In this document: positions 75 to 21,576 of the stretch, piece by piece
How positions within the stretch are numbered: the first letter of the stretch is position 1
Layout: every line of letters starts with the position of its first letter
Virus record (IMG/VR): IMGVR_UViG_3300033156_000233
Span: 1-21,576 of that record
DNA: 21,576 nucleotides
Reading direction: 5' to 3' (one strand)
Origin: a virus
The notes under the pieces: model-generated
What the model was told of the DNA's origin: nothing
Database searches by the model: none
What the model saw: only the letters and a program-made list of their open reading frames with translations
Translations under genes and position numbers: made by a program

Positions 75-311
75 TCACAAAAACTTCTCCAATTCGAACA
101 CGACAGGTCCGCTCGGCTTCATCGACTTCGCCATAACTTCATTAACCTTACCACACTTGCGACATAAGCATTTTATCAACGAAGCTCCCTTTATGACGTT
201 TACATAAAAGTATAAATCCTTATACTTAATACGCAAGATGTCCGTCCCATCCAAGTAGCCTAAGACGGCTCCACAGCTTGAGCATTCCCAAACTTTAGAT
301 CGGTCGTTCAA
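75..311 (-). CDS. small zinc-ribbon protein, Com-like
   Basis: This 78-residue protein has two CxxC knuckles, CSSC near the N-terminus and CRKC about 40 residues later (the latter inside KCLCRKCGKVNE). The spacing fits a treble-clef or zinc-ribbon fold. The layout recalls the Com proteins of Mu-like phages, small zinc fingers that control translation of a neighbouring mRNA, but similarity beyond the cysteines is slight. I chose the TTG start at 311 because GAGGTG lies seven bases upstream at 324-319; an earlier TTG at 332 has no such site. The first 17 bases overlap the end of the preceding tail gene, so translation is probably coupled. Zinc binding is likely; the function is not known. Confidence 0.6.
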   Translation of the reverse strand: MNDRSKVWECSSCGAVLGYLDGTDILRIKYKDLYFYVNVIKGASLIKCLCRKCGKVNEVMAKSMKPSGPVVFELEKFL

Positions 312-726
312 TGCCTTGCACCTCAAACTCAAATGTTATCGTGTTAACGTTTTCTTCCTTTAAGGAAGACCGAGAAACTCTCTTAACGTCTCCGGTATAA
401 TAAGTATGAGCAGTAATGTTCCTTTGATTTAACAGTTTTTGTAACTCACTACTCAGGTTACGAATAAGACTTGTGGTAACTTCTTCGCCCGACTCTACAG
501 AAAGATCTAAAAGCAATCTACCCGAACATCGAAAAAAAGCCTCTATAGATTGATCGGAAGTGTCTTCCACCTTTAAAAACGTTGAAGGAGTGACTCTCTC
601 TTCAGGGAGTGTAGAAACTAAAACAGGGGCTCTTATTAACCCAATGCTATAAGTCTGATCCAAACCTGTTAAAACGTCTTCAATCTTACTACTCAAATCT
701 AATTGAACTTCGTGGAGGTAAATCAT
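295..726 (-). CDS. putative tail terminator / tail-completion protein
   Basis: The product is 143 residues. It starts at ATG 726, preceded by GGAG inside the last codons of the upstream gene, and one base separates the two genes. No decisive motif is visible. The N-terminal part (IEDVLTGLDQTYSIGLI) and the predominantly alpha/beta pattern ending in an extended strand (TITFEFEVQG) are compatible with tail terminator proteins of the lambda gpU / HK97 type. The order connector, head closure, gp10-like, this gene, then a likely tail gene is the usual neck-to-tail order in siphophages. The assignment rests mainly on that order and size; it could also be an unrelated neck protein. Confidence 0.45.
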   Translation of the reverse strand: MIYLHEVQLDLSSKIEDVLTGLDQTYSIGLIRAPVLVSTLPEERVTPSTFLKVEDTSDQSIEAFFRCSGRLLLDLSVESGEEVTTSLIRNLSSELQKLLNQRNITAHTYYTGDVKRVSRSSLKEENVNTITFEFEVQGIERPI

Positions 727-727
727 T

Positions 728-1108
728 TTACTTACTCCAAATCTTCTTTAACTCAGGTAATGCGTTTTTCAAGGCAGCTTTAACAAAATCCCGAGGAATC
801 ATCCTCTTTGTACCTTTTACAACATACTCAAGATACGGGGCGTCTCTACTCTCAAAAACTACCCCATCGTCCGTTTTCCGCATAGATCCTTTTAAGCGCC
901 CTGTTCGCACATGAACTAATGGGGTTAATATAGCAGGATTCTTTCTTGAATAAGGATGTTTCAACTCACGCAATTTCTTGTTAGAGAGTGACTCACCGCT
1001 CGTGAGCTTTTGAAGCTCGTTGAAAATAACATCAACGGATCTTTTCTTCCTTTCTCTAAGATCTTTAGTAAACTTTGCCGCAGAAGGTAAACGAATTGTG
1101 AGTTTCAT
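728..1108 (-). CDS. HK97 gp10-like tail-completion / neck protein
   Basis: The 126-residue protein shows the family pattern in order: a basic helical N-terminus, then VRTGRLKGSM (the TGrLrxS motif), then APYLEYVVKGTKRMIPRDFVKAAL (Y-x-Y/VxxGT-x(n)-P-x-x-F-x-x-A). Known members (Pfam HK97-gp10_like) act where the tail joins the head. The start ATG at 1108 overlaps the TGA of the preceding gene as ATGA, and AGGGA lies just upstream, so it is translationally coupled. Its length is typical of the family. Nothing looks broken. Confidence 0.8.
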   Translation of the reverse strand: MKLTIRLPSAAKFTKDLRERKKRSVDVIFNELQKLTSGESLSNKKLRELKHPYSRKNPAILTPLVHVRTGRLKGSMRKTDDGVVFESRDAPYLEYVVKGTKRMIPRDFVKAALKNALPELKKIWSK

Positions 1109-1686
1109 CTTTCCCTAACTTGAACTACGTCAAGTTCCCAATGATGAAGTCTCCCTTTTCTGTCGAAAGCTTGCTGCGCCTTTATAACAGAAAAGTGTTC
1201 GTTGGATTCCTGATCTATTAAAACATCACCGGAGAAAATATCAACACCAGGTAAACATACCAAGACGCTCGTAGAAACTAACGTTATTCGACCAAACTCG
1301 TCCGTTCCAATAGCACGTTTATCCGTATAAATTGCCCCTGTAACTTGGCCTAAATCAAAACCGACTTCTTCATTTGCATAAATCGAAAGTGCACTATCAC
1401 GGTTACATATAACAGTATCCAACCTAGAAAACCTATTTGACGTATAAACCGCACTAAATCCGGTCAGGGTCAACGTTTCTGATGTCGATCCTCCAGTAAG
1501 AGTACAAATAACGCTTGAGGAGCCTTCCAGCAGCGCTACGCGCAAAGGAGCCTCAGGCTGAATCAGTGTTATTCCAATAGAAACTAACTCGTCCTTCCTA
1601 CACGATACAGCGGATTTAAGGCACGCCGCGTACCTTCGTACCGTATAAATCCGCTGTCGATAATGAAGCCCTACCAAGTTCGTCAT
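1105..1686 (-). CDS. putative head-closure / head-tail adaptor protein
   Basis: The protein is 193 residues. Its C-terminal 45 residues contain GDVLIDQESNEHFSV, then KAQQAFDRKGRLHHWELDVV. This is the gDrI-x(n)-Y/FxV-x(n)-d-x-x-g-x-x-H-h-x-E pattern of small beta-barrel head-closure proteins (SPP1 gp16 and lambda FII class). The N-terminal half is longer than in the minimal family and rich in Ser/Thr beta strands. Both ends overlap neighbours by ATGA, placing it in one translational chain between the glycosyltransferase and the gp10-like gene. It probably seals the connector after DNA packaging. Confidence 0.6.
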   Translation of the reverse strand: MTNLVGLHYRQRIYTVRRYAACLKSAVSCRKDELVSIGITLIQPEAPLRVALLEGSSSVICTLTGGSTSETLTLTGFSAVYTSNRFSRLDTVICNRDSALSIYANEEVGFDLGQVTGAIYTDKRAIGTDEFGRITLVSTSVLVCLPGVDIFSGDVLIDQESNEHFSVIKAQQAFDRKGRLHHWELDVVQVRER

Positions 1687-3581
1687 TTTACAATGTACCT
1701 TTCAGTATACTCTTTCAAGGGGCCGTACACTTTTCTAATGGCGTTCAGCATTGGATGGTTAGGAGGAACATATTCTAGTGTTCTCTCAATTGCCTCAAGA
1801 GCTTTTTGACAGTATACTCTCGAAACTTCATACTGAGCAAGGGCAAAGCTGGGATGGAGCGAGATAGTTTGTAATAAAAGCTTTAATGCGAGGTCAAGAT
1901 TCTCCGGGTGTTCCTCATACTCATTCAAAAGGTCGAGAGCCAGGTTAAAGTACGGCATAGGATTTTCAGGTTCCTCTTTTATTTGCATCGAGATTAATTC
2001 ACGGTAAAGCGAGAGCTTTTCCTTCATGTTGGGAGAAAGAAACCCAAAGTGATAGATGACAATATTATCAACACGGGATACTCTGCGATTTTCTTCAGAA
2101 GCACACCTCTCAACAGTTTCATGAACTCTGTTCGAGTAGTACCAGGTTCGTGGGTGCTTGATCAATCGAATTGCGTCTTGATAAATAATCACGCCATCTT
2201 GGGGCGTCAGATTGTGAACTTGTAATTGAATTGCTTCTGTATCCTCAGGTGCTTCCATCATAATGGAGTAAATTTGCTTATAATCAACAACTTCGTCGAG
2301 GTCCTGTTGGAACAACCACAGGCCATTCGCCACCTTTAAATACAAATTCCTTATCTTAGAGAAGTCTTTATTAAGCGTTGCTTTTATAACCTCAGCCCCA
2401 AAGAACTCCGCGAAATCAGGTGACTCATCCTCTGAGCCGGTATCAACCAGAACAACCTGTTGAGCAAAGGGGATCGCAGCGCTTAAGTAAGTTGGCAAGT
2501 TTTTCATCTCGTTCTTCATCATAGACGCAATAGTTAGAGTAGGAGTTCTAATCTCTGCGACTGTACTATTAGAAGGAAGATCAGAAACTTTCTTAACTAT
2601 TGAAACATTGACAGGACGAGTCCCTTCATAAGGTAATTGTTGACTATAATAAGGGTTAATAAGAATTCGCGACGCAATCTTCTCAAAAGAGGCAAACGCT
2701 CGAACCTCCCATGTAACCTGATCCTTTATAAACCACCCGTCCTTCCAAGACCTCAAAATAGGAAACTGGTATGCAAAGACAAATGGATCTGGATTATTAC
2801 AAAGCTTTGCTAAATGTTCTTTAGTAAAGTTCTCCGTAAAATCTTCCCCCTCCTTAAGAACAAAAATCAGCTTCCCGGGTTTAATTTCAGGAATATTTAA
2901 GACGTCACACGTTATGACATCTTCAAACAAAGACTTGGCGTTGACAGGGACCTCAGGAGAACGTGTATACCGGTATATCAATACGGGTTCAAGCTTATTC
3001 GAAACAAATCGAGAATCAAGCTTCCGACTACTTGTATCCTCGACGTCTAGGACATATGAAGGCAGAACATAACCAAATCGACCCAACTTCATTAATTCAA
3101 AACTCGCGAGTTGAACAATTCTTTCATCCTGTAACTTCAGAATTAGCTTTTCAAACAAAGAAATTGCTTCCTTCGTTTTAAATACAAAGCAATGAGGGGA
3201 AACACGCACAAGAGTCCCCTTTTCCTTTCTCTTATAACTTTGAGGCCCTGCTGCACGTGGAAGAGCAGGAACGACCAGACCTACTTCCGGAATAGATAAA
3301 ATTTCAACAGCCTCCCTAAGAAAGTTGAGGTCAGAAAGAACGACCCCCGCCTGAAAAAATACAAAGTATTCCGTTTCAACTTTTCTCAACCCTGCAAGAA
3401 GTCTCCTTCCAAAAGTTTTACCCCCCTCATAAATACGACAATTCAATGCGCGTGAAAGCTCACGTTGATCTTGTCCAACAACAACGACGGGAATACCTCC
3501 GGCCTTAAGTGGGAGAACTGTATCCAGAAACGAAACGGTATCCTCAGACGTAGGGACTATAGCAGTAATAAGCTTATCCAT
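1683..3581 (-). CDS. two-domain family 2 glycosyltransferase with TPR tail
   Basis: The 632-residue product starts at ATG 3581 behind AAGGAGG. Residues 1-200 form a GT-A-like N-terminal half (AIVPTSEDTVSFLD, later FFQAGVVLSD), which may be inactive because no clear DxD is seen. From residue 346 a second, clearer GT2 domain follows: SMMKNEMKNLPTYL, VVLVDTGSEDES, FSKIRNLYL, and a DLDE acidic site at residues 427-430 in the place of the usual DADE. Residues 530-630 carry helical repeats of the TPR type (PYFNLALDLL, ALAQYEVSRVY). This is the layout of SunS-like and TPR-containing GT2 enzymes that move a sugar from a nucleotide donor to a protein or glycan. It sits between the connector and head-closure genes and overlaps the latter by four bases, so it is transcribed with virion proteins. 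Modification of a capsid, neck or tail protein is my inference. Confidence 0.8.
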   Translation of the reverse strand: MDKLITAIVPTSEDTVSFLDTVLPLKAGGIPVVVVGQDQRELSRALNCRIYEGGKTFGRRLLAGLRKVETEYFVFFQAGVVLSDLNFLREAVEILSIPEVGLVVPALPRAAGPQSYKRKEKGTLVRVSPHCFVFKTKEAISLFEKLILKLQDERIVQLASFELMKLGRFGYVLPSYVLDVEDTSSRKLDSRFVSNKLEPVLIYRYTRSPEVPVNAKSLFEDVITCDVLNIPEIKPGKLIFVLKEGEDFTENFTKEHLAKLCNNPDPFVFAYQFPILRSWKDGWFIKDQVTWEVRAFASFEKIASRILINPYYSQQLPYEGTRPVNVSIVKKVSDLPSNSTVAEIRTPTLTIASMMKNEMKNLPTYLSAAIPFAQQVVLVDTGSEDESPDFAEFFGAEVIKATLNKDFSKIRNLYLKVANGLWLFQQDLDEVVDYKQIYSIMMEAPEDTEAIQLQVHNLTPQDGVIIYQDAIRLIKHPRTWYYSNRVHETVERCASEENRRVSRVDNIVIYHFGFLSPNMKEKLSLYRELISMQIKEEPENPMPYFNLALDLLNEYEEHPENLDLALKLLLQTISLHPSFALAQYEVSRVYCQKALEAIERTLEYVPPNHPMLNAIRKVYGPLKEYTERYIVK

Positions 3582-3591
3582 AATAACCTCC

Positions 3592-4407
3592 TTAAATCAA
3601 TTTTCGCTTGTAAGGAGCTAACAAACTCCTTATCTCAAACATTACGTCCATCTTTTCATCACGTAAATAATTCTCAACGTTACTCAATAAACGCCGACTT
3701 GAAAAGCCTTCGGATTCGCGAAGATTGTAAAGCGCCGAAATAAGCTTAAGGCAAGCAAGTCTTACTGGTGAGGGAATCTGGGAAAGGCCAAAAGTATAAG
3801 TACACTCAAAAAATCCTGACTGAGCGGAAAAAAACTTTATAAGCCCCGTTGATAAATCAACAAAATAATCCTCATCCGCAACTAAATCTACCTCATCAAG
3901 CGTAATCTCTGTAATACTCGAGATTGGAAAGTACCTAAGCTCGTACTGCACGGCCTCCTTTAACACCCATCGTTCAGTCTCGCTATGTTGTCCAAGCTTT
4001 AACTGGGTGTATTTCAAAATCGCGGCGGAGGCCGCCTGAAGAAGGGCTCTCACAAAAGAATCCTCAGAAAAATCATCCAAGCGAAGATACTCTTTTGCTT
4101 CTTCCAACGTTACGAGCTCGGTTGCAAGAGCATTAACAACATCAAATCTTTCCTGAGAATTTGAAAGAACGTCTTCAAATCCGTACTTTCCTCTTCCTAC
4201 AGCAAAGTAGGACCCCAGTGTGGCAAAAGGAGTAGTCCAATAAGTTATGTAATGCCCTCCAGTGAAAACAAGATTTACTGTCCCAACCTTAGTTCCGTAA
4301 GGGTCAAAAATATCTGCCTTGGGCTGAGATACAGCTACAGTTTGACCTCCCACAACAAAGTCAAACTGTAACTTAATATCACTTCCCGCGTAAACTTGCT
4401 TAAACAT
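3592..4407 (-). CDS. head-tail connector (gp6-like) with N-terminal beta domain
   Basis: The start is ATG at 4407, preceded by GGGAG; it overlaps the end of the upstream gene by eight bases and gives 271 residues. From about residue 98 the sequence reads VTLEEAKEYLRLDD, then DSFVRALLQAASAAILKYT, the signature of the HK97 gp6 / SPP1 gp15 connector family whose rings dock onto the portal. The final helices (PVRLACLKLISALYNLRES) fit as well. The first 95 residues are an added all-beta segment (GSDIKLQFDFVVGGQ, DPYGTKVGTVNLVF, GSYFAVGRGK), probably an Ig-like domain; free-standing gp6 proteins are about 100-180 residues. The gene lies directly upstream of the glycosyltransferase. Confidence 0.75.
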   Translation of the reverse strand: MFKQVYAGSDIKLQFDFVVGGQTVAVSQPKADIFDPYGTKVGTVNLVFTGGHYITYWTTPFATLGSYFAVGRGKYGFEDVLSNSQERFDVVNALATELVTLEEAKEYLRLDDFSEDSFVRALLQAASAAILKYTQLKLGQHSETERWVLKEAVQYELRYFPISSITEITLDEVDLVADEDYFVDLSTGLIKFFSAQSGFFECTYTFGLSQIPSPVRLACLKLISALYNLRESEGFSSRRLLSNVENYLRDEKMDVMFEIRSLLAPYKRKLI

Positions 4408-4777
4408 TTTTTTCTCCCGAATCAATGTAGTCTTTATAAGTTTCAAGAATTTTCTCAACCTTTTTCTTACTTATACGAAGCGTCTTTGAGATCATTGAAA
4501 CAGAAGCGTTCCCATTCTTGTACATCTCAACCACTTTCCGTTCTTTCCCTGTCTCAGGTGGTAATACAGGAGGCGAGTCAATGGAAACTTCAACTTTTTG
4601 GGCGGGAGTATTATTTCCATTACTCGACACGCGTACAAACCCGTGCATCTCCAGAGTTTGGGCAGTATCCTCATATTTAACCTCGCACTTGCCATTTCTT
4701 ACCCTAACAATCTCTCCGTAAGTGGGAATTTCCCAATATTCACCCTCATAAGGACCTTTATACTCTAACTTTATCAC
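4400..4777 (-). CDS. small protein with C-terminal helix-turn-helix
   Basis: This 125-residue protein starts with GTG at 4777 behind AGGAGG. Residues 1-50 form a short beta-rich segment (MIKLEYKGPYEGEYWEIP, GEIVRVRNGKCEVK). A Pro-rich linker follows. Residues 79-118 look like a helix-turn-helix (ERKVVEMYKNGNASVSMISK, then TLRISKKKVEKILE), with the phase of sigma-region-4 or resolvase HTH units. It lies just after the capsid-gene terminator, a position often taken by small head or head-tail proteins. Whether it is a DNA-binding regulator of the late operon or a structural part using an HTH-like fold cannot be decided from the sequence. Confidence 0.6.
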   Translation of the reverse strand: MIKLEYKGPYEGEYWEIPTYGEIVRVRNGKCEVKYEDTAQTLEMHGFVRVSSNGNNTPAQKVEVSIDSPPVLPPETGKERKVVEMYKNGNASVSMISKTLRISKKKVEKILETYKDYIDSGEKNV

Positions 4778-4925: not shown

Positions 4926-5876
4926 TTACTTGATACCGATGATACAAGAGATCGCCAGAGGATCTCGTGCGACGAGGACTTCATCAGCGAAAATATCAAA
5001 CTTATCATACTGGCTACTTTCTTTCGCTAGCGGCTGCACATTAAGCGGGGTAAGCTCGGAGATATAGACCTTCTCCGAATCAACAACGAACAGAGTACTC
5101 AAGCTCCCACCGGTTAACGACGTAATAGTAGCGCAAGTTGCACTTACCTGTTGTGTATCAGGAATCTGGTTACTAACCAGGATGGGCACCTCGTTATAGC
5201 TCAAAACCTCAAAACCACCCCTAACCTTTACTGTGTTGATAAACCTTTGCTGGGTTTGCATAAGGGCCCTTATTCTCCTTCGGGTTCTCTTAGAACATAC
5301 GATCATACCGGGCATACCGCGAATAGCATCAAGAGCTTGATCTAAGAGAGCCAAGGTCAAATCTCCGCCTGAAGAGTTCGAACCAGCAGGGATGATATTC
5401 GAGGCGTCACACAATTTATACAAGCCGTCAAACTCCTTGGAATCCGCATCGGAGTCGCCCCAGCAAATTGCGTACTCCTCTTTGTCTCTAAAATCCTCCG
5501 CTTTGGCCTCCATCTCAGCAGTCAAAAGGTCGACGTACTTAGCTCCAATTGCACGGGCCTTACGAGTAACCTTCCCTTGCGTACCGATGGTCTTATACAA
5601 AAATGCAACCTGCGCATAGGTACCGGTCTCCTCGTCAAAAGAATCAGTATCAGAATAAAACGCAGCCTTAGTAGCACCAGGAGTTCGCCTATTAATATAA
5701 ACGCCAGCACCTGAGCCGGGCTTCCTGGGAAGGTTCTGCCTTAGGGGGTTTAGATGCTCGACCATCTGGGTAATGATCTTGTCAACCTCCTTTGGGAGAA
5801 TATCGGCAATCCCCTCATAACCTCCGCCAGTATTCTCTGCAAGTGCCCTTCGAAGTTCCGAAATAGGATTCAACAT
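4926..5876 (-). CDS. major capsid protein, HK97 fold
   Basis: The 316-residue protein starts at ATG 5876, sharing the A of the protease stop (TAATG), with AAGGAGGTG eight bases upstream. The sequence has the features of HK97-type capsid proteins: a helical N-terminus (ELRRALAENTGGGYEG), an E-loop-like region rich in basic and aromatic residues (GATKAAFYSDTDSFDEE, TGTYAQVAFLYKTIGTQGKV), a long spine helix (AKYVDLLTAEMEAKAEDF), and a C-terminal P/A domain ending in ADEVLVARDPLAISCIIG. Length matches the family. The upstream prohead protease-scaffold gene and the downstream terminator are standard context. No long N-terminal delta domain is present; the scaffold function sits in the upstream gene. 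Confidence 0.85.
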   Translation of the reverse strand: MLNPISELRRALAENTGGGYEGIADILPKEVDKIITQMVEHLNPLRQNLPRKPGSGAGVYINRRTPGATKAAFYSDTDSFDEETGTYAQVAFLYKTIGTQGKVTRKARAIGAKYVDLLTAEMEAKAEDFRDKEEYAICWGDSDADSKEFDGLYKLCDASNIIPAGSNSSGGDLTLALLDQALDAIRGMPGMIVCSKRTRRRIRALMQTQQRFINTVKVRGGFEVLSYNEVPILVSNQIPDTQQVSATCATITSLTGGSLSTLFVVDSEKVYISELTPLNVQPLAKESSQYDKFDIFADEVLVARDPLAISCIIGIK

Positions 5877-9808: not shown

Positions 9809-10454
9809 CTTTAAACATTTCCTCCTGAGGAATCTCAACTCCCCAACTCGGTACAAGAAAGTACCGAGAAGGCAGTTTCAAATTAATATCAAAGTAATTT
9901 GCCTCAGAGAACTTCAAAGGTACCTCCTTTACACCGCCATCTGTAAAAACAATCCTTGTTAGTTTCTCTTTGACTTGTTGAAACTCTTTATTAAAAGTTC
10001 TGCTATTCGTTCGACATACGACACCTTCGGGCGAATAAAACCAAACCCCTATCGTTATATCTCGCCCTCTCAAACGCTCAAGTACGTAACCTCTATGTAC
10101 CTGTTTAAGAGTGCGATTATGACTCCCCGCGTTTGCAGGAAGTACCACTTTCTTCTGCGCCCTTTCCTTATCAGTAATACAATAAAAATCAGGAGCTAAT
10201 ACAGAACCGAGCTCTTCAGGAGTAAACTTCACCAACCGAACAGTTACTGGGGAATAACTCAAGCGAACTTCTCCTTCAACGAGCTCACTCCCCTCTAACT
10301 GAACGCCTCTCGAGAGAGCCTCTTGAAGAAATCGGTTCTTTGTACTAACAGACATGTTTCCTTCCTTCCACAACCAGGTCCCTACTAATGTACCATCTTT
10401 ATCTACAATATACCCAATCTTAGACTCTATCTCTTTGACAAACTGGTTAGCCAC
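9792..10454 (-). CDS. unrecognised protein of the packaging module
   Basis: The 220-residue protein starts with GTG at 10454 behind AGGAGG (seven-base spacer) and overlaps the end of the portal fusion by 28 bases. I do not recognise a family. It is mixed alpha/beta and basic, with a central segment (VLPANAGSHNRTLKQVHRGY, then GRDITIGVWFYSPEGVVCRT) that looks like a compact folded core. The strong coupling to the portal gene on one side and the terminase pair on the other suggests a role in packaging or head assembly. Confidence 0.7.
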   Translation of the reverse strand: MANQFVKEIESKIGYIVDKDGTLVGTWLWKEGNMSVSTKNRFLQEALSRGVQLEGSELVEGEVRLSYSPVTVRLVKFTPEELGSVLAPDFYCITDKERAQKKVVLPANAGSHNRTLKQVHRGYVLERLRGRDITIGVWFYSPEGVVCRTNSRTFNKEFQQVKEKLTRIVFTDGGVKEVPLKFSEANYFDINLKLPSRYFLVPSWGVEIPQEEMFKDVKES

Positions 10455-13400
10455 TTCGTAGCCTCCTTCCGTGTTTTAAAGGTAGAGAGTTTTTCATAAA
10501 TATCAACCAAATTCGTCCTGCCCTCCGTTACAGCGGAAACTATCTTATCCATCAAGATATCTAAGTCCTCTTTCTTAACTTTTAAAGTCTTCTCAAGAAG
10601 ATCTCGCACGTCTTTAAGAGTAACGAGCGTCTTCCTAGGAGGTGCTGCCTTCGCTTTCTTTGGAACCTCTTTTGGTTTTGGTTCCTTGCTTGGCATCTTC
10701 TCCTTCTCAGGTGCTCTTAAGAATTTATCGATCGCGTCCTTAATGCGTTTGCGAATATCTTCGCCCTCCTTTTTAGCTGCGCCCTCAAACAACCCGACCA
10801 GTTCCTCGATACCAACATCCTCCTTAACATGTGCCCACAATAGCTGTGGAGTTAACCCTTTTACTTGGTCCCTCGTCAAGCCGAGGCGCGTCAAAGCTTC
10901 AAAAACTCTTTGCCACATAGGATGCTTGCTAATAAGAGTTTCAGGTCTAACAACAAGGTCTTGAAGGAGTGACTCCATAAAAAGGAACAACTCAGGGTCA
11001 CTAAAATACAAGATAGAAGGATTACTTATGTATGTAGCAAAAACCTCCGCAAAAGATTCGTCGATACTCTGCAACGAGTACAAGCGCAAGGGAAGGGCCC
11101 AATTTCTTAATGCCGTTTGAAGTTTAGGATAAATAGGCTTAAAGACTTCGTCCCTAAAAATGTCTCTTGATCCCAAAAAAAAGCTGCCTAACGTATTCTT
11201 TTCACTCGCGTCTAACATCTCGCTCATGTACCCCATAAATTTCTGGGCCTCTTTTTCGGTAAGATAGGGCAGAGTCTGTTCATAAAAAGGTATTAAAATC
11301 CTCTCTCTATAAACAAAGGCAAACGCATCTCTCATTGAAGAACGCGCAACAAAATGTCTTTCAAAAACATGATGCCCTAACTCGTGAAGGAACTGAAAAG
11401 TATCTCCTGTAGTCGTTATGGAACCGACAAACGACTTTGAAAAATCCTTATAAGATCCTTCCAAGGAATAAGAGGCGTCATAACGAGAGACATCGGATAA
11501 TTTAATACTCGCCAGGCCGTCCCAAAAGGATGATACTCTTAACGAGGGGTGTGCTTGTAATATATCCATCAGTTTATCACGAAACTCAGAATCAACATGC
11601 GATATTCGCGAAAGAATCTTTTCAGGAGTTTGAGTCGCTCGCCAAGGAGCCGTACGGGCTTTGCGAACCCTATCTATCCACTTTGCATAGGAGGTTGGGG
11701 ACCAGAAATTCGCAGCGAGAAGCTCTCGAAAAGCGGTCATCCCAACGATATCCTCTCTATGCGGGCTAAAAATCGACGCCCGAAACATGTGAATAAAAAA
11801 CTCTCGAGAGTCAAAGTAAGCCTTAGGAGGGAGATCAAAAAGCTTCAAGGACAAATCCTTGAAAGGCTCAAAGTTCCCTTCCAACCACGGATCCTTCAAT
11901 TCAGCAGGCAAAAACTTCTCTAAATAACCATCCCACAACGACTTTCTCGCCCTCTCCATTACAGACATCAACTCGGCAACAAACGGAGAGCTTGGATATT
12001 GAAAATTTTGCCGAAGAAGGATATTTAAAGCCGTCGCATCAACAAAAGCTGCGCGAATCTGATCCTCGGAAAACGATGCCGGAATCTCAAGAACATTTCG
12101 AATTGCGTCGTATCTAGGTTGCGTAAGCGCCTTGTGTAAACGTACCTCCTTAAATAACGAAACGTATGAAGGTTCGCGTAACTGAGGGGTTTTCTTTAAC
12201 GCATCGACTATCTTTTTATCGATACGTTCAACAATATCCGAAAAAGCGAGTGCTACTTCTTTCGCCGGAACGTGAAGATTTTTTAAACTTATTTTCTCCC
12301 CAATCCACTTATTCACAGCTGCCTGAGATATATTTGAAATAGGCTCAAGAACACATCTACAGTTATGCCCGCATCTAACTCCGTATCCGGGCCAAGTCTG
12401 GAGTAACTCTAACATAGAAGGCCTAAAAACTCTCCCCTGAAGTGCTGCACAATCTTCACAGTTACCACTCCAGAGACATTTACCGTTTCTCATAACATAA
12501 AGAGTGTGCCACTTAGGAAGGGTCACATCGTAAACTTTGCCCTTGTAATAAGTACGATGTATTACCGCATCGCTAACAAAGCTTAAGTCACTAGGGACTG
12601 AATCAATCCCTAAAGGAACTTTGTGATAAAAAGAAACCTTTGCATATTTAATTAAATCTTCAGAAAGAGTTCTCCTGAGTCCCTCTCCAACATATACAAA
12701 ACATTGATGGTCGGGGGTTACTAATAGGTCAGTCTGATTACCTTCAAAATGAATCATCTCCCCGTCGTACTCAAATGACTGATAAGCAACCGGTTTCACC
12801 CACTCAACTTGGGACAGGTCTCTAGGATTAATACTCAACATCTTCTCCGATCCATCTAAGTCTTTAAAAAACTTCCAGCCTTTATCCGTTAACACCCGTG
12901 TCTCTTCATCATAACATGTAACATCATCACTAATACCTACCCACCTCAAAAGAACTCCCTGAGTTTCCTCAAAGAGCCTTGAAACAAGAACCAGCGGAAG
13001 ATTTGCAAAGAGTGTAACAAATCCTGCAATGGCGATAACGGAGCGCATGAAATTGTCAAAATCCTTCTTAACCTGCTCCCAACTACCTCTTTTTGCCTCA
13101 TTATGTATAGTATCTAACCGATTCTTCCAATTCCGAATGGCTTCTTCCCGCAGGCGTCGATCGTGTTCTTCAATTTCCTTATTAATCACGTCTTTGTCAA
13201 AAGTGTCTAACCCCCAAAATTGAGCTACTCGCTCATAACCAAGATCTACCGCGTCCTCTTCATATGAGTCAAGTATCCCTTCAACCGATAAAAGAAGCGG
13301 TACGTAAGAAGGGAGGACAGATGCCGTCTGACGTAACATAACCCGCTCTTCAAACGAGGAACGATAATCTAGCAATAACTTCTTTAAATCATCTTGCATC

Positions 13401-14707
13401 GATTTCAAAAGGTTCATTCGTTTCAACACAAACCTGGCCGTTCTTTCATCAGGAAGCAGTGACAAATTCTTCAGTTGCTCGACCTTCTCAAGCGAGAGTG
13501 CTCGGGTAAGATCAAGTTCGTGCTCAGGGGCCGTTAACGGTACAACCGGCTCTTCTTGAGAAGGTTGTTGCGATTTACCCAAAGGTGTCAATCCCTGAGG
13601 TTGCATCACAGAAATCTGATCACCTCCCTTCACTGGAGGGAGGTACATAAACTGTCTTGCTTCGTTAGGCGAAATCAACCCCGATTTTGTCCCTTCAATT
13701 ATTCTCTGGAGAGAATGAGCGGGTGGCACCTTGAACTTAAATGTTACCCCATACGGCTTAAGAAATCTGTTCAAACGATTCTGAATCGCTCGTGCAACAG
13801 TAGGTACAAGTGTTGAGTACATCAAATCTTCATTGGACTCCGCCTGAAGTAAACTACTCCCGGGTGGGACGAATCCAAAAGCACTACGTACTAACCAGTC
13901 AAGTCTATCTAAGAATGTAGACACCATTTGAATATCAAACTGTTTTACTAACTCAATCCACTCGCCTTTTCCCGCACCCCATACAATAGGGATCTTTACT
14001 TTATCACCAGCAACCAGAGAAGTTAAGTCCTCCTGAAACTTGTTAACTACGTCTTCGCTAAGCTCTTCCGGGAATATAAAGGCACCAATTGGTTTTCGGG
14101 AGTCAGGGTCGCTCTTAACTAGATTCTTTAAAAGACTCGCAACTTCATAAGTTAAGGACTCGAGAATAGGAATTCCTTCGCTCGCGTAAGTTTTAGGAAC
14201 AAGTTGTATATATACTAAATCGTCCGGCTGGAAGCGATAAACCTTACCGAGTCCAACTTGTTGAATATACCCGCGCAGGCGCCCATCCCTTTCATAAACA
14301 GGATGAAAAGTCGCTGCATCTCTGGCGGTAAAACCGGTTAAACGACCACCGACAGTCTTCAAAGGAACCAAAACACCCCTGTTCAAAACAAGTATATCTA
14401 CAGTCAAAGCAATCAAAGTATCTCGAAACGTTTCTCCAGTTACAGTCTCGCGAACGAATATGAGATCAACAACTTCTTTCTTCTTTAACCCTAACTGTAC
14501 ATCATACTCCCGTGGCAAATCAGCAACTGCACTGGCAATCTGTTCTACACAACGTCTAACAATACTAGTCTCTCGATAAATTTGGCGTAGCTCAGACGCA
14601 GAAAGAATGGACGTCAAACTCAAGGCCAGGCTAGTCGATATTGAAGCCTCACCTACTGCCTTCTCTCGAACTTTCTGTTCCTTTTTCTCTTCGAGCTGTC
14701 TTTCCAC
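10427..14707 (-). CDS. portal-MuF-zincin fusion protein with intein
   Basis: The 1426-residue product begins with GTG at 14707 behind AGGAGG. Residues 20-400 are a phage portal protein: the AASELRQ-like helix and IVRRCVEQIASAVADLP at the start, FRDTLIALTVDILVLNRG, VYRFQPDDLVYIQLV, and SAFGFVPPGSSL. After a linker, a MuF (SPP1 gp7-like) domain runs from about 500 to 800, split by an intein at 598-749. Its joined motif is WVGISDDVT plus CEDCAALQGRVF, then GHNCRCVLEP. Residues 1080-1230 form a zinc metallopeptidase: HELGH at 1108-1112 and DESFAEVF with the likely third ligand E1221. The C-terminus has a Lys/Pro linker and a helical tail. After splicing the protein would be 1274 residues. Portal and MuF are usually separate genes. 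A promoter-like sequence lies upstream. Confidence 0.85.
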   Translation of the reverse strand: MERQLEEKKEQKVREKAVGEASISTSLALSLTSILSASELRQIYRETSIVRRCVEQIASAVADLPREYDVQLGLKKKEVVDLIFVRETVTGETFRDTLIALTVDILVLNRGVLVPLKTVGGRLTGFTARDAATFHPVYERDGRLRGYIQQVGLGKVYRFQPDDLVYIQLVPKTYASEGIPILESLTYEVASLLKNLVKSDPDSRKPIGAFIFPEELSEDVVNKFQEDLTSLVAGDKVKIPIVWGAGKGEWIELVKQFDIQMVSTFLDRLDWLVRSAFGFVPPGSSLLQAESNEDLMYSTLVPTVARAIQNRLNRFLKPYGVTFKFKVPPAHSLQRIIEGTKSGLISPNEARQFMYLPPVKGGDQISVMQPQGLTPLGKSQQPSQEEPVVPLTAPEHELDLTRALSLEKVEQLKNLSLLPDERTARFVLKRMNLLKSMQDDLKKLLLDYRSSFEERVMLRQTASVLPSYVPLLLSVEGILDSYEEDAVDLGYERVAQFWGLDTFDKDVINKEIEEHDRRLREEAIRNWKNRLDTIHNEAKRGSWEQVKKDFDNFMRSVIAIAGFVTLFANLPLVLVSRLFEETQGVLLRWVGISDDVTCYDEETRVLTDKGWKFFKDLDGSEKMLSINPRDLSQVEWVKPVAYQSFEYDGEMIHFEGNQTDLLVTPDHQCFVYVGEGLRRTLSEDLIKYAKVSFYHKVPLGIDSVPSDLSFVSDAVIHRTYYKGKVYDVTLPKWHTLYVMRNGKCLWSGNCEDCAALQGRVFRPSMLELLQTWPGYGVRCGHNCRCVLEPISNISQAAVNKWIGEKISLKNLHVPAKEVALAFSDIVERIDKKIVDALKKTPQLREPSYVSLFKEVRLHKALTQPRYDAIRNVLEIPASFSEDQIRAAFVDATALNILLRQNFQYPSSPFVAELMSVMERARKSLWDGYLEKFLPAELKDPWLEGNFEPFKDLSLKLFDLPPKAYFDSREFFIHMFRASIFSPHREDIVGMTAFRELLAANFWSPTSYAKWIDRVRKARTAPWRATQTPEKILSRISHVDSEFRDKLMDILQAHPSLRVSSFWDGLASIKLSDVSRYDASYSLEGSYKDFSKSFVGSITTTGDTFQFLHELGHHVFERHFVARSSMRDAFAFVYRERILIPFYEQTLPYLTEKEAQKFMGYMSEMLDASEKNTLGSFFLGSRDIFRDEVFKPIYPKLQTALRNWALPLRLYSLQSIDESFAEVFATYISNPSILYFSDPELFLFMESLLQDLVVRPETLISKHPMWQRVFEALTRLGLTRDQVKGLTPQLLWAHVKEDVGIEELVGLFEGAAKKEGEDIRKRIKDAIDKFLRAPEKEKMPSKEPKPKEVPKKAKAAPPRKTLVTLKDVRDLLEKTLKVKKEDLDILMDKIVSAVTEGRTNLVDIYEKLSTFKTRKEATKWLTSLSKR
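12461..12916 (-). other. mini-intein (Hint domain) inside the MuF motif
   Basis: The segment codes for exactly 152 residues (598-749 of the fusion) and starts with Cys in CYDEETRVLTDKGW (block A). Block B is NQTDLLVTPDHQCFV. Block F is YKGKVYDVTLPKWHTLYVM. It ends LWSGN, followed by Cys as the +1 residue. There is no room for a homing endonuclease. The usual penultimate His is Gly here, as in a subset of phage inteins. Removing it restores T-CEDC, the conserved CxxC of MuF domains. Splicing is expected but not proven. Confidence 0.88.
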
Positions 14708-14728: not shown

Positions 14729-14757
14729 TTGACTTCAACTTTTTTCATCTTTATACT
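14729..14757 (+). promoter_or_regulatory. sigma70 promoter for the nucleotidyltransferase gene
   Basis: TTGACT at 14729-14734 and TATACT at 14752-14757 are separated by exactly 17 bases, giving five of six matches to each consensus hexamer. Transcription would start near 14764, leaving a leader of about 25 bases with AAGGAG before the ATG at 14789. It is the best promoter match I saw in the window. Confidence 0.7.
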
Positions 14758-14779
14758 AAAAAACACATTAACGAAGCAA
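14750..14779 (-). promoter_or_regulatory. possible divergent promoter for the structural operon
   Basis: On the minus strand TTGCTT (14779-14774) and TATAAA (14755-14750) are 18 bases apart. This is a weaker match than the plus-strand promoter, but it faces the portal gene start at 14707. Its -10 box overlaps the -10 box of the plus-strand promoter, so RNA polymerase could hold only one at a time. Confidence 0.35.
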
Positions 14780-14788
14780 GGAGTAAAA

Positions 14789-15580
14789 ATGAAAATAGCA
14801 CAGCTTTTGGGCGCAAACTTATCAAAAATCTCGACAAAAGATTTAATCTTTAAGCACTCCATCATAATTGCATTGATTAAAAAGGCCCGCAAAACTAAAA
14901 AGGGCGCAGGGGGCTTGTCACTCTCTCAACTCTTAAACCTGGACAAACTTATAGTTAAGGAACTTAATAAAAGGGGTGTCAATGCACATCGAGTTAAAAG
15001 GGGACTCGATAGGATTTTGCCGTTCCAAATCAAAAATCCGTTCATTATTGTCACTGGATCCATCTTCTACGGAACTCCACACGACCTTGACTTTATGATT
15101 TTCACCCCTTTTAAGATCGAAGATGACCCTATCGCCCGACTAGCAAGAGAAAGTCTTAATAAATTCCTACCCCACTATGTACACTGGTCAAATTCATACT
15201 ACGGAACACCATTTTCAACATTTGCATCCGTCTATAACCTCGAAGTAACTCCTAAGATGCTCAGTAGAAAGTATGCCCCCATGTTCCCAAAAGGGAACGC
15301 TAAACCCATTTCCATTGATTTAGGAAAAATTTTGAGCAGTTTACCGGACAAACTGATTCTCATAAAGAACTTTATACATTACGCGCCTGCATACCATCTT
15401 TTTCTCGCTCCCAAGCTTCCTATTTACTATTTTGTCCCTCTCTATATAAGACTACAAAGAATGTTTCCGGTAGAAGAAAGGCCTGAAATAAAAACAATAA
15501 AAGGGCGAGTACACCAGAACTGTATTCCGGTATATAACTTGATTCTTCGAAAGGTCCCTTTTAAGGTCACCGAAATGTAA
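14789..15580 (+). CDS. nucleotidyltransferase-fold protein, lone plus-strand gene
   Basis: The start is ATG 14789, with AAGGAG five bases upstream, giving 263 residues. The key motif is TGSIFYGTPHDLDFMIF, with G90-S91, G95, D99 and D101. This is the GSxxxG-x3-DxD motif of the DNA polymerase beta-like nucleotidyltransferase superfamily; D177 in PISIDLG could be the third metal-binding Asp. The N-terminal 80 residues are basic and helical, and the C-terminal 80 are aromatic-rich. Such folds include tRNA- or protein-modifying enzymes and MNT/AbiEii-type toxins, and I cannot choose between them. It is the only plus-strand gene, has its own promoter, and runs head-on into the minus-strand cluster with no bases between stop codons and no visible terminator. 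Confidence 0.7.
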   Translation: MKIAQLLGANLSKISTKDLIFKHSIIIALIKKARKTKKGAGGLSLSQLLNLDKLIVKELNKRGVNAHRVKRGLDRILPFQIKNPFIIVTGSIFYGTPHDLDFMIFTPFKIEDDPIARLARESLNKFLPHYVHWSNSYYGTPFSTFASVYNLEVTPKMLSRKYAPMFPKGNAKPISIDLGKILSSLPDKLILIKNFIHYAPAYHLFLAPKLPIYYFVPLYIRLQRMFPVEERPEIKTIKGRVHQNCIPVYNLILRKVPFKVTEM

Positions 15581-16782: not shown

Positions 16783-17859
16783 TTACCATAAAAAACGAGG
16801 TAAGGTTGTTATTTGCTTCTTTCTTTCAAAGCAAACATCAATTAACGCTCTTAAATCAGACTCTAAATCGATTGTACTATCAGAAAAAAACTCATTCAAG
16901 AGGTTCCGTTCAATTCGAACAAATTGGTTCCAAGTAAATTCAAACAATTTTCGCGAAAAAAACCCAACCCGTAATCGCAACCCAAAGTCCTCAGCAAAAA
17001 TATGTTTTATTTTATAAATAAGATCCTGAAAGCTTACCATTCGATCAAATAAATGCACAACTGGCCTATCAATCTTCTTCGTCAAAAGGTACGAAAAGCC
17101 TTCAACAAACTGTCGAACTGACAAAATTGTGTAAAAACCCTCAAAAGGGACGTTAACAATTCCCTGCCGGACTCCCCTTGCACAAAAGTAATTAATGTAG
17201 GTACCATGAAATCTGTCTACGTGAAGTCGGTGTAAGGGTTCCTCTTCGGGGTATACACCAAAGACGGATCCCACTCGTAAATCAACAACCTTCAGTGCAA
17301 ATTGCCTTCGAATATAAGAGAGTAAAATTTGTACAAAAGCTTCTGTACATTGGTTAAAAGAATCTCCCTTAACAGGGAAAGGAAGAAAATCCTCTAACTC
17401 GTTATGATGAATCATAAGAGGCTTCTCAGGGAGAGGTAAGCGAGAAGGGTAATAAGAGTTCAGGTCAGTTACTACAAATACAGGAACTTGCTGTATAGAA
17501 GACTTATGCAGTGCATATGTTAAAGAAATAACATTATTAAGACTCTCAACACATAGCAACTGACTATGTTGCTGAAACAAGAAGGGACTATATACGCGAG
17601 ACAAATCAACAATTAGATCTGGCTCAAACTTCTCCAAAACGCGTCGAAGTGCTACCGATTCAGAGATGTCTATCTCAACAGCTTGAAGGTCTTTTAAAGA
17701 TCCAAAAGAGTGTGGAATAATAGAATAGGAAGAAGTTTGAGCTACTAACGCTTCCCTTCTTAAATTATCCAAACCTAAAACAGAATGACCCTCTTTTAAG
17801 AGATGATGTGCAAGAGCAAACCCTAAATAACCATCGGCGCCTAAAACAGCAATCCTCAT
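16783..17859 (-). CDS. SQD1-like sugar-nucleotide SDR, probable pseudoenzyme
   Basis: The 358-residue protein is an extended SDR with the NAD-binding GADGYLG motif near the N-terminus and DNLRR after strand 2. Several blocks recall UDP-sulfoquinovose synthase (SQD1): GxDGYxG-x6-HL-x-x-x-GH-x-V-x-x-x-DN, EPDLIVDLS, VVDLRVGSVFGV, LHRLHVDRFHGTYINYFC, and the VRQFVEGF end. However, where SQD1 has SSFYHLSK the sequence reads DSFNQCTE. The catalytic Tyr is N169 and the Lys is E173. The TMGEYG segment is also changed to TDLNSYY. It therefore binds a nucleotide cofactor in all likelihood but may not be an active oxidoreductase. It overlaps the glycosyltransferase stop by ATGA. Confidence 0.75.
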   Translation of the reverse strand: MRIAVLGADGYLGFALAHHLLKEGHSVLGLDNLRREALVAQTSSYSIIPHSFGSLKDLQAVEIDISESVALRRVLEKFEPDLIVDLSRVYSPFLFQQHSQLLCVESLNNVISLTYALHKSSIQQVPVFVVTDLNSYYPSRLPLPEKPLMIHHNELEDFLPFPVKGDSFNQCTEAFVQILLSYIRRQFALKVVDLRVGSVFGVYPEEEPLHRLHVDRFHGTYINYFCARGVRQGIVNVPFEGFYTILSVRQFVEGFSYLLTKKIDRPVVHLFDRMVSFQDLIYKIKHIFAEDFGLRLRVGFFSRKLFEFTWNQFVRIERNLLNEFFSDSTIDLESDLRALIDVCFERKKQITTLPRFLW

Positions 17860-18824
17860 TTTAGCGAAAACCTGTGTAACCCCTTAAATTCCTCTTCAAT
17901 ACCCAACACAGACCTACACATCAAATTGACAAACTGTTTTGCTCGAACCTCAACACTATGAAACTTCCTAACCAAACTATATCCTTGTTTGGTTATCTCT
18001 TCTATCCGATCCTCGTCTTTCAAAATGCTCAGGATTTCTTCCTCAAAGGAAGACATGGACACGGGCAAGTAATGTTTACCAGGAACGTAACCTAATTCAT
18101 CGAGATCTCTAAACGGAGGAGCTACCAATAAAGTAAAGGACGCAGGAATTTCAAAAAATTTCTGTACCGGGTAATTATAGATACTTCCACAGGTAGGGCA
18201 AACCTTTGCCGAATTTAAGAGCTTGGCATAAGAGTCATGAACTATTGCAGTCTTAGAACTAAAGTGTCCGTATCCGGGATGGGGTACATGCATAAAATTA
18301 GGGTAGCTCTTAAAGGTTTCTAAATAAGCAGCACGAAAAGGATAAACATCCTTATGAATGGCCCCGGTAAGCAAGATATCAATAGACTTTTCGCGAGACC
18401 ACTTTCTAAAAACTTTCGTGTCAACTCCTATAGGTAACCAATCGCAAGGAGCAACATCAAGTAAACGGGGAAATACTTTCAACGTCCCTTCCTTATACTT
18501 CACTATAACAAAATCAATCTTATTCTCCTTAACAAACAGGAGACGTTCATGTTGAAAACTATGAACGTCCCAATAGTGAACAACTTTAGGAAGCGTAACT
18601 TCAGCAAGACCCCCCAGTGGAGGAGTAACAGGTGGGGCCTCACCCAACATTAACAAGTCAAAAGACTTCCCCTCATCAGCAAGTTTCTCCAACAACGTTG
18701 GGACGTGGCACGACTCATGATGAAAAGTAACATCAGCAACTTCAGCAAGGGCCTTTTTAAAGGCTAAATGTCCAAGACTAATCCAATTTGTAAAATCCTT
18801 ACAAATGTACAAAATCCTTAACAT
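17856..18824 (-). CDS. CgeB-like glycosyltransferase (GT4/GT-B type)
   Basis: The 322-residue product starts at ATG 18824 behind AAGGAGTGAG. The N-terminal half is Rossmann-like (RILYICKDFTNWISLGH, FDLLMLGEAPPV, KVVHYWDVH). The C-terminal half carries the pattern of the CgeB / Glyco_trans_1_2 group: LPIGVDTKVF, IDILLTGAIHKDVYPFR, YAKLLNSAKVCPT, NYPVQKFFEIPASFTLLVAP, YVPGKHYLPVS, and EEITKQGYSLVRKFHS-x-x-x-RA. It would transfer a sugar from a nucleotide donor. Co-translation with the SQD1-like gene (four-base overlap) suggests one pathway, perhaps together with the GT2/TPR enzyme in the neck region. The acceptor is unknown. Confidence 0.8.
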   Translation of the reverse strand: MLRILYICKDFTNWISLGHLAFKKALAEVADVTFHHESCHVPTLLEKLADEGKSFDLLMLGEAPPVTPPLGGLAEVTLPKVVHYWDVHSFQHERLLFVKENKIDFVIVKYKEGTLKVFPRLLDVAPCDWLPIGVDTKVFRKWSREKSIDILLTGAIHKDVYPFRAAYLETFKSYPNFMHVPHPGYGHFSSKTAIVHDSYAKLLNSAKVCPTCGSIYNYPVQKFFEIPASFTLLVAPPFRDLDELGYVPGKHYLPVSMSSFEEEILSILKDEDRIEEITKQGYSLVRKFHSVEVRAKQFVNLMCRSVLGIEEEFKGLHRFSLK

Positions 18825-19062: not shown

Positions 19063-20067
19063 TCATCTCCTCCCTTTCAACCAGAAGTCAAAATAATCGT
19101 ACGCTTCGGGCCATTTTATCCGCAAGATTCGACGCTTCTCAGGGTCGGCGTTCGCATAAAACGCAAATGCTTCGGAAAACCCTTCTTCGGGATCCTGAAG
19201 ACTAGGGAGAGTCAGGACAGGCGTATCGAGTGGATCCCGCATAAGCTCTCTATAAAACCGAAGTCGTACAAAATTACGGTTAACACACGACCGTTCACGC
19301 CCGTAATTCTTAACCGACTGATCAAAAAACCGAGCACCGTCCGGAAGAACTCTACTTATATAAGGAGCATAAACCTTACTCCCAAAATCCACATAGTGAC
19401 CCGGAAAACGGTCAGAGAAGCGACTCTGAATAAAGTGGCCAGCTTCGTGCAAAAAAGTGTGTCCATACTCGGAAATGTGGTGAGTTACGGGATAAACTTG
19501 AATACTTATAGCTCCGGAGCCCTGCGGAAACGCAAGATCGGCGAACTTTACTACTTCAGGGTCAAATCCATAGGTCCTTGGAATCTTTATCCCCAAATAG
19601 GTTCTAATACGCGCTCTATCAACAGCAGAAAACTCTGCATAAAACTCTTTTGTAAGCATCCTCTCCAAACTATTAGACGATCTTAAAATGTTCGCGTCTG
19701 TATAAAATCCATAAGGAGCCGCGGTAGCGGTAGTAGCACGATGAAAGGATAAACTAATCTGTTGAAACTCCTTCTCATAAGGTGTTCCTTTAATAACATT
19801 AAGAAAAGAGTCCATTTGAGCTAAAATCTCCTTACGAACCTTAGGAGGTGGCACCGCCGGAAATTCTAAGAAATGATACGATTCAAACCCTGCGTTACTC
19901 AACGCTTTATTGACAGTTCGGGAATCAACAACCTTTATAGGAGACTTTCTCACGAAGCTAACCATCCAAAGGAAATATTTCCTATATTTCTTCTTTACAA
20001 TAGGGATCTTTCTCCCTCCCTTCGTAATCCACTTCTCTATCCATTCAGATGGAACTTCAAGCTTCAT
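19063..20067 (-). CDS. stand-alone zincin metallopeptidase
   Basis: The 334-residue protein starts at ATG 20067 behind GAGGAG. Its motif FLHEAGHF places HEAGH at residues 207-211, and EEGFSEAFAFY supplies the likely third zinc ligand E299. Both blocks resemble those in the portal-MuF fusion (FLHELGHHVFERHF and DESFAEVFATY), so the two are probably related. The N-terminus is basic (TKGGRKIPIVKKKYRKYF). No signal peptide is visible, so it acts inside the producing cell, in the virion, or after injection. The substrate is unknown; self-processing of a virion protein or cleavage of a host protein are the obvious options. Confidence 0.75.
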   Translation of the reverse strand: MKLEVPSEWIEKWITKGGRKIPIVKKKYRKYFLWMVSFVRKSPIKVVDSRTVNKALSNAGFESYHFLEFPAVPPPKVRKEILAQMDSFLNVIKGTPYEKEFQQISLSFHRATTATAAPYGFYTDANILRSSNSLERMLTKEFYAEFSAVDRARIRTYLGIKIPRTYGFDPEVVKFADLAFPQGSGAISIQVYPVTHHISEYGHTFLHEAGHFIQSRFSDRFPGHYVDFGSKVYAPYISRVLPDGARFFDQSVKNYGRERSCVNRNFVRLRFYRELMRDPLDTPVLTLPSLQDPEEGFSEAFAFYANADPEKRRILRIKWPEAYDYFDFWLKGRR

Positions 20068-20987: not shown

Positions 20988-21344
20988 TTAATTTCGCCCC
21001 CTCTCAAGAAAGGAGGAATCCATCCTCTTCGCCTTAAAAAAATCCTTCACATATTTCTGAATCTTTAAAGAGTCAAAAGCCTTACAACTAAAAACATCAA
21101 TATAAGCAGCATTGCATACAAAAGCAAAATGACCCGAAACCAGAGAAGTCTCGATTAACTGCACAAGGGTGTACCCTTCAGTCGGACCCCGTCCAAACCA
21201 TTCGATAATAGGATCACCAAATCTCTTAACGTCAAGTATATCACAGAGTCCGATAACAAATTCCCTTAGCTTCCTCTCACTAGTAATAAGAACTCGATCG
21301 CACTCATATAAATCTAATATCAGATGGTACCCCCAACCTTTCAT
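20988..21344 (-). CDS. diverged SpeD-like pyruvoyl decarboxylase
   Basis: I chose ATG 21344 because AGGGGAG lies nine bases upstream; the product is 118 residues, a typical size for class 1b Spe[14 protein letters not shown] opens the fold, and [13 protein letters not shown]-x(n)-YIDVFSC is the active-site block. Aligned without gaps to canonical SpeD, the Ser of ETS falls on the pyruvoyl-forming Ser63 (Thermotoga maritima numbering), and His of SGH and Cys of FSC fall on His68 and Cys83. Ser55 is replaced by Thr, and Glu62 before the cleavage site by Thr. Related SpeD-like proteins are common in phages; some SpeD homologues are known to decarboxylate arginine or ornithine instead. It overlaps the upstream speD by 41 bases. 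Confidence 0.75.
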
Positions 21345-21576
21345 CACGGATTGCTCCCCTCTCAACAGTTGTGACCTTAGAATATCCTCCCTGAAGAAAG
21401 GATAGAATCTCACGCATGGCGAGATCCAAGTTAACAGTTTTTCCGCACGTGAACAAATCTACAGCGGCGTAAGAAGCTTCGGGCCAGGTATGAATAGTGA
21501 AGTGAGACTCTGAAATTATAACAACACAACTTACGCCATGAGGTTCAAAATGATGCGCGTGTGAATGAAGAACTGT
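21304..21576 (-). CDS. speD: S-adenosylmethionine decarboxylase proenzyme (5' end outside)
   Basis: The 90 C-terminal codons are present; the N-terminus lies beyond the right edge. The segment [19 protein letters not shown] followed by [10 protein letters not shown] is the hallmark of bacterial SpeD. The ES/SH site is where self-cleavage forms the pyruvoyl group, and Ser55, His68 and Cys83 equivalents are all present. The enzyme makes decarboxylated AdoMet, the aminopropyl donor for spermidine. The tail continues about 45 residues past the Cys. It overlaps the second speD-like gene, so both subunits are co-translated. Confidence 0.85.

Follow-up and report, generated by a model that had tools for sequence, protein, structure and literature searches.

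The occurrence of a large glycosyltransferase gene among the genes that join a phage head to its tail raises the question of what such an enzyme modifies, and whether the virus particle itself is the substrate. Glycosylation of virions is documented in few phages (mycobacteriophages), as far as the parts of the literature consulted go. Here we examine a virus contig of 21,576 bases (the window), in which the gene is best explained as encoding a soluble, late protein glycosyltransferase that acts on the phage's own neck proteins or on other virion proteins during assembly. We put the probability of this reading at roughly 60%; on it, some part of the virus particle would carry a sugar coat. The original prediction, which proposed glycosylation of capsid, connector or tail proteins, was right in direction and is partly supported, its acceptor step being conjectural; activity, donor, acceptor, linkage and timing are matters that we infer. 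Phage virion glycosylation is already known, and it is the neck-coupled, inherited form that is new. Searches of an open-access literature collection turned up no description of a GT2-TPR enzyme within a phage neck module. If the reading is true, virion glycosylation would be an old assembly trait and not an occasional acquisition, and a concrete acceptor would be named for testing.

The neck genes of the window are arranged as follows.

4926-5876, minus strand: major capsid protein (SU10-like), the independent bait for the survey of relatives
3592-4407, minus strand (ORF listed as 3592-4458, with its ATG at 4407): gp6-like head-tail connector (Ad1), matching Phage_connect_1 and phrog_442
1683-3581, minus strand: glycosyltransferase gene, 632 amino acids, the ORF boundaries first reported being exact
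1105-1686, minus strand: head-closure-type protein orf1105, 193 amino acids; extra N-terminal domain, Ser+Thr 24.1%
728-1108, minus strand: Neck1 or tail completion protein, matching phrog_5 (E 8.6e-4) and similar to the Neck1 of the relative L015 (E 1e-5)

The glycosyltransferase ORF is placed between the connector and the head-closure gene; upstream lie the connector, an HTH-like gene, the capsid gene, a prohead protease and the terminase, and downstream lie orf1105, Neck1 and two small genes. An AAGGAGG ribosome site precedes its ATG. The gene was said to share four bases with the head-closure gene and to follow the connector, and both statements are borne out: the overlap with orf1105 is exactly four bases (ATGA, 1683-1686), and the connector matches Phage_connect_1 (35.7 bits, cut-off 21.2) and the phrog_442 head-tail adaptor (2.6e-25). 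The same four-base overlap, as ATGA or GTGA, recurs in L003, L007 and L008, and hence in all four members of the window clade examined. The gene, its place and its family are confirmed. Assignment of orf1105 as head closure rests on its position and on weak profile matches, PHROGs and Pfam having returned no match for it.

In several clades the neck genes are closely followed downstream by a gene for a small zinc-ribbon protein with two CxxC motifs (window 75-332, minus strand; L068:14851-15225, L098:7808-8098 and L101:6656-7003); the window copy has no Pfam match over the cut-off, and by eye we take these proteins to resemble phage Com-type proteins. The interval from the zinc-ribbon gene to the following tail gene holds different insertions at L003:14940-16025 and L007:15024-15557, and none in L008; these look homing-endonuclease-like by eye, LAGLIDADG-like in L003 and HNH-like in L007.

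The enzyme divides into four parts, with two motifs in the third.

2997-3581, minus strand: segment 1 (aa 1-195), the nucleotide-binding part of a GT-A fold, lacking the conserved DXD
2547-2996, minus strand: segment 2 (aa 196-345), second GT-A-like segment, with a conserved PDP...AY motif
2037-2546, minus strand: segment 3 (aa 346-515), GT2 catalytic domain of SunS/GmaR type
2292-2303, minus strand: DLDE motif (aa 427-430), the acidic motif of the GT2 domain
2118-2126, minus strand: VHE motif (aa 486-488), with VHE in SunS and IHE in GmaR at the equivalent place
1686-2036, minus strand: TPR-like helical C-terminus (aa 516-632), predicted helices

Residues 356-451 of the window protein match PF00535 (Glycos_transf_2) with 32.2 bits against a cut-off of 23.3, which places it in the family, while the distant relatives L066 and L068 score 18.2 bits, under the cut-off. 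It has the conserved acidic DXD-type motif of GT2 enzymes as D427-x-D429-E430. The GT2 part of the proposed GT2-TPR architecture stands. For the TPR part, the Pfam models stay under their cut-off, with E 0.12 at best in the window protein and weak matches in relatives; five C-terminal helices are nevertheless predicted, the structural matches to SunS and ThuS extend to aa 617-629, and this helical end is the most conserved part of the protein between the window and L003 (87%).

An AlphaFold model of the window protein has a low mean confidence (pLDDT 57.1) with a usable C-terminal half, and its best structural matches are SunS (Z 18.1) and ThuS (Z 17.9), both over about 260 residues, followed by the WrtF fucosyltransferase (16.3). 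A second model, of aa 1-346, also has low mean confidence (67.4), and its residues 1-132 match GT-A enzymes with a best Z of 10.2 over 121 residues, moderately above the level reached by unrelated models; this supports the weak N-terminal GT-A half that had been proposed. At the place of the DXD this half carries QAG, HPK, DGR and HPS in four relatives. Residues 196-345 align with the second of three GT2 domains in relatives, sharing the PDP...AY motif, and carry KEGE or REGE in the window clade where other clades have DADE. Since the first half has lost its acidic motif and the second segment has KEGE for DADE, only one of the three GT-A-like units in the window clade seems to be intact, the other two being degenerate. 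The suggested arrangement of one active and one binding domain thus holds in part: the first GT-A half is present without its acidic motif and the GT2 domain is intact, but a second degenerate GT-A-like segment apparently follows the first. Either degenerate segment may bind sugar. When the N-terminal half of the window clade was compared by hhalign with that of the L015 clade, the match was weak, at best 52.6% probability and for segment 2 only.

Among proteins of solved structure the closest in sequence are GmaR (7.9e-13) and SunS (3.3e-8), which modify proteins or peptides, in keeping with the earlier argument that protein-modifying GT2/TPR enzymes exist. GmaR of Listeria, a flagellin O-GlcNAc transferase and antirepressor, resembles the phage enzyme in having a GT2 domain followed by TPR repeats, with IDADE at the place of the phage QDLDE and IHE at that of VHE. 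It differs in that its GT domain is N-terminal and its C-terminus is an antirepressor domain, whereas in the phage enzyme two additional, degenerate GT-A-like segments precede the GT2 domain and nothing follows the helices. In the parts of the source consulted, the GT domain of GmaR adds GlcNAc to flagellin and the TPR is proposed to bind flagellin (PMC9638930). SunS and ThuS, the glycocin S-glycosyltransferases, share the GT2 and helical fold with the phage enzyme over about 260 residues (Z 17-18), and SunS also has the VHE motif. Against the SunS equivalog TIGR04195 the window protein scores 26.8 bits (E 2.1e-6, cut-off 350), as a distant relative and not a member, and, unlike in the glycocin systems, a glycocin precursor was not noticed among the genes near the phage enzyme, no model for one being used. 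FlmG of Caulobacter, as described in the portions consulted, binds flagellin through a TPR part and transfers sugar with a separate part (PMC7591256); its transferase part is GT-B-superfamily-like and its TPR is N-terminal, so that the working principle is the same and the family is another. Mycobacteriophages belong to a different phage group. Their virion proteins (capsid and tail tube) bear glycans (Freeman et al. 2023, via PMC12619734, PMC11256854 and PMC12691614), and the sections of these sources consulted place the putative enzymes of Maravista, a related F1 phage, close to the genome's 3' end; these lie outside the neck genes and the window enzyme lies inside.

Whether the gene belongs where it was found was assessed in relatives, gathered mainly with the major capsid protein as bait. 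Six capsid-related contigs carry the enzyme, with 72, 54 and 48% identity and the same gene order. The L015 clade came first from an enzyme-led scan and was later recovered by capsid-led scans; its enzyme, of about 781-798 amino acids, lies between closure and Neck1, with three Pfam GT2 stretches in both members scanned. More distant capsid relatives came from a capsid-led scan that took its baits from both clades, and the L094 lineage came from an enzyme-led scan. Profiles for connector, closure, Neck1 and enzyme were run against 53 capsid-led loci; 19 loci from 13 contigs showed both connector and Neck1, with the enzyme between them in 13 of the 13 contigs, or eight once near-identical ones are merged (L003-L006, four contigs, and those numbered 3300008050, 3300022227 and 3300025097). 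Some of the surveyed loci went into building the profiles for Neck1, connector and closure, which match their source loci by construction; phrog_5 is independent. Searches of 15 whole records found the enzyme in six and phrog_5 in five, four of which carry the enzyme; the nine records without an enzyme match are mostly fragments. One capsid relative (G018/L100) has Neck1 and no such enzyme.

In the remoter clades the order is closure, enzyme and Neck1 (L098); closure, two small ORFs, enzyme and Neck1 (L101); enzyme then Neck1, with a closure-like sequence ahead of the enzyme (L099); or connector, closure and enzyme, with Neck1 further down (L094). L066 and L068 have the enzyme and no recognised closure gene, and in L057 radical SAM genes come after the connector together with a GT2-cytidylyltransferase, the stretch in view showing neither enzyme nor Neck1. 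In all, seven phage clades that split deeply carry an enzyme of GT2-TPR type in the neck module, and the link to virion genes is much better supported than could be known from the sequence alone. Since the position is kept across clades, chance insertion or stray cargo is rejected. With the window protein as sole query, viral contigs yielded no relative; it was the capsid- and alignment-led scans that found them. A genome scan yielded one contig only, in a metagenome-assembled genome titled 'bacterium isolate AUK014', which does not fix the host. Among 50,697 phage records there was no match covering at least 80% of any of six enzyme queries, two of which had no match at all, and isolate-based work would for this reason have missed the enzyme.

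Across 14 sequences from the seven clades, D427, D429, E430, N412 and V486-H487-E488 are invariant (14 of 14) although some pairs are only 14-17% identical, as expected of a working enzyme. The capsid tree and the enzyme tree agree on the main groups (the window clade; L094 together with the L015 clade; L066/L068/L099/L101), with several deeper branches poorly supported; the capsid proteins of enzyme-bearing clades are about 34-57% identical. In every comparison pN is well below pS, with synonymous sites saturated. The chief result is that a phage lineage inherits the enzyme as a component of its neck module and keeps the catalytic residues strictly.

The neighbouring proteins were compared as candidate acceptors. 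Closure proteins beside the enzyme, in 12 of 12 examined from six clades, are 192-203 amino acids long (that of L101 taken from an internal start) with about 71-83 extra N-terminal residues; Ser+Thr make up 18.5-35.5% of these extra residues and 12.7-23.5% of the remainder, the L099 closure showing no enrichment (18.5%). In L100, which is without the enzyme, the closure protein has 101 amino acids, lacks the extra part, and matches head-tail connector and closure families. The association of closure domain and enzyme, with this single enzyme-less relative as contrast, is suggestive; searches of isolate phages with the L094 and L098 closure proteins gave no match, and the contrast therefore rests on the contigs examined. 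Connectors with an extra N-terminal stretch (271-288 amino acids in all) are confined to the window clade, the other eight measuring 180-205, and the Ig-like connector domain that had been put forward as an acceptor is hence unlikely, and is rejected, as a general one. The extra domain of the closure protein is plausibly the acceptor most favoured by gene order, and fits better than the connector domain.

On the favoured reading, the C-terminal helical repeats would hold the protein acceptor, as proposed for GmaR, and the DLDE/VHE GT2 domain would move a sugar from a nucleotide donor onto Ser, Thr or Cys. The degenerate N-terminal segments may hold the acceptor or the growing glycan, the acceptor would be the extra N-terminal domain of the adjacent head-closure protein, and other phage glycosyltransferases might extend the sugar. 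A more specific version, which we advance tentatively and think rather less probable than its opposite, is that neck glycosylation is an assembly step in which a three-domain GT2-TPR enzyme of ancient inheritance decorates the extra closure domain, which is often rich in Ser and Thr, forming a sugar collar at the head-tail joint, with enzyme and domain gained or lost together.

The fold by itself does not fix the acceptor, because close fold relatives include the glycan-acceptor enzymes WrtF, TarP and TarS. The enzyme might instead modify a host surface glycan (O-antigen, LPS core or S-layer), excluding other phages or protecting progeny, with its place among the neck genes serving late expression only. 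GT2 enzymes of the same fold do include polysaccharide and teichoic acid enzymes, PHROGs annotates the family as 'beta-1,4-glycosyltransferase' in the class morons, and in this phage group the region ahead of the portal gene holds further genes for glycosyltransferases, epimerases and methyltransferases; but the best relatives in sequence and structure act on proteins or peptides, the neck position has been kept through deep divergence, unlike that of a mobile moron, and the adjoining closure protein has an extra domain that accompanies the enzyme. Enzymes of GtrB type, which perform O-antigen conversion, have a GT2 domain anchored by membrane helices. By hydropathy count, the phage enzyme shows no such anchoring, lacking any long hydrophobic stretch (highest 19-residue Kyte-Doolittle mean 1.53, against 2.20 in the comparison orf15581). 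We consider the host-glycan explanation unlikely, at about one chance in several.

It is more doubtful still that the protein is wholly or partly a structural component of the neck, its glycosyltransferase fold binding host sugar in the manner of a lectin and its catalysis secondary or lost. The location among neck genes and, in the window clade, the loss of acidic motifs from two of three GT-A-like segments would fit, yet the invariance of the catalytic residues through such divergence speaks against it. Least probable is glycosylation of hypermodified phage DNA, for which the first domain of the enzyme in the relative L015 comes close to the TAGT family (PF20691; 27.4 bits, cut-off 27.5). 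The window protein has no TAGT match, a thymidylate-synthase-type enzyme was absent from 10 of 10 records searched while nine of 14 control genomes were positive, and a Tet_JBP match was absent from 10 records, although here the controls gave no signal either; the neck position and TPR-like end would also be left unexplained. DNA modification was accordingly rejected as the main reading.

Other sugar genes occur in the window.

17856-18824, minus strand: second glycosyltransferase (Glyco_trans_1_2), by profile match
16783-17859, minus strand: NAD-dependent sugar epimerase/dehydratase, by profile match

The former is a possible partner building a longer glycan, and the latter possibly a donor-sugar enzyme. 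Upstream of the portal gene, the longer relatives G006 and G001 encode methyltransferases as well as a GT2/7C-type enzyme and a DXD sugar-transferase (the GT2/7C-type and DXD enzymes of G006 named by similarity to scanned G001 proteins), and G001 has a GT9 among its tail genes. These genes and those of the window might extend a first sugar or have some other role. Sugar-chemistry loci also lie near the capsid genes of other capsid relatives (L057:8816-12674, L070:12317-14788 and L074:742-2608), with radical SAM/B12 genes, a sugar epimerase-like gene, a GT2-cytidylyltransferase fusion or an RGP-type mutase; sugar chemistry near head genes may be wider than one enzyme.

Several further features of the window were noted. 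The portal ORF (10427-14707, minus strand), a portal fusion, is interrupted by a candidate mini-intein at 12461-12916 (minus strand, aa 598-749), which starts CYDEETRVLT and ends GN before C; it is present in L003, but L007 lacks the equivalent residues (about aa 599-745). By eye, HExxH-type metallopeptidase-like stretches occur as HELGHH in the same portal fusion and as HEAGHF in orf19063 (19063-20067, minus strand), the latter with a weak match to the ATLF family (E 0.012). A lone plus-strand gene (14729-15580) lies between the portal and response-regulator genes, with parts of it in L002, L003 and G006. Finally, 20988-21413 (minus strand) encodes an S-adenosylmethionine decarboxylase (AdoMet_dc, E 4.4e-19), a gene of the polyamine pathway.
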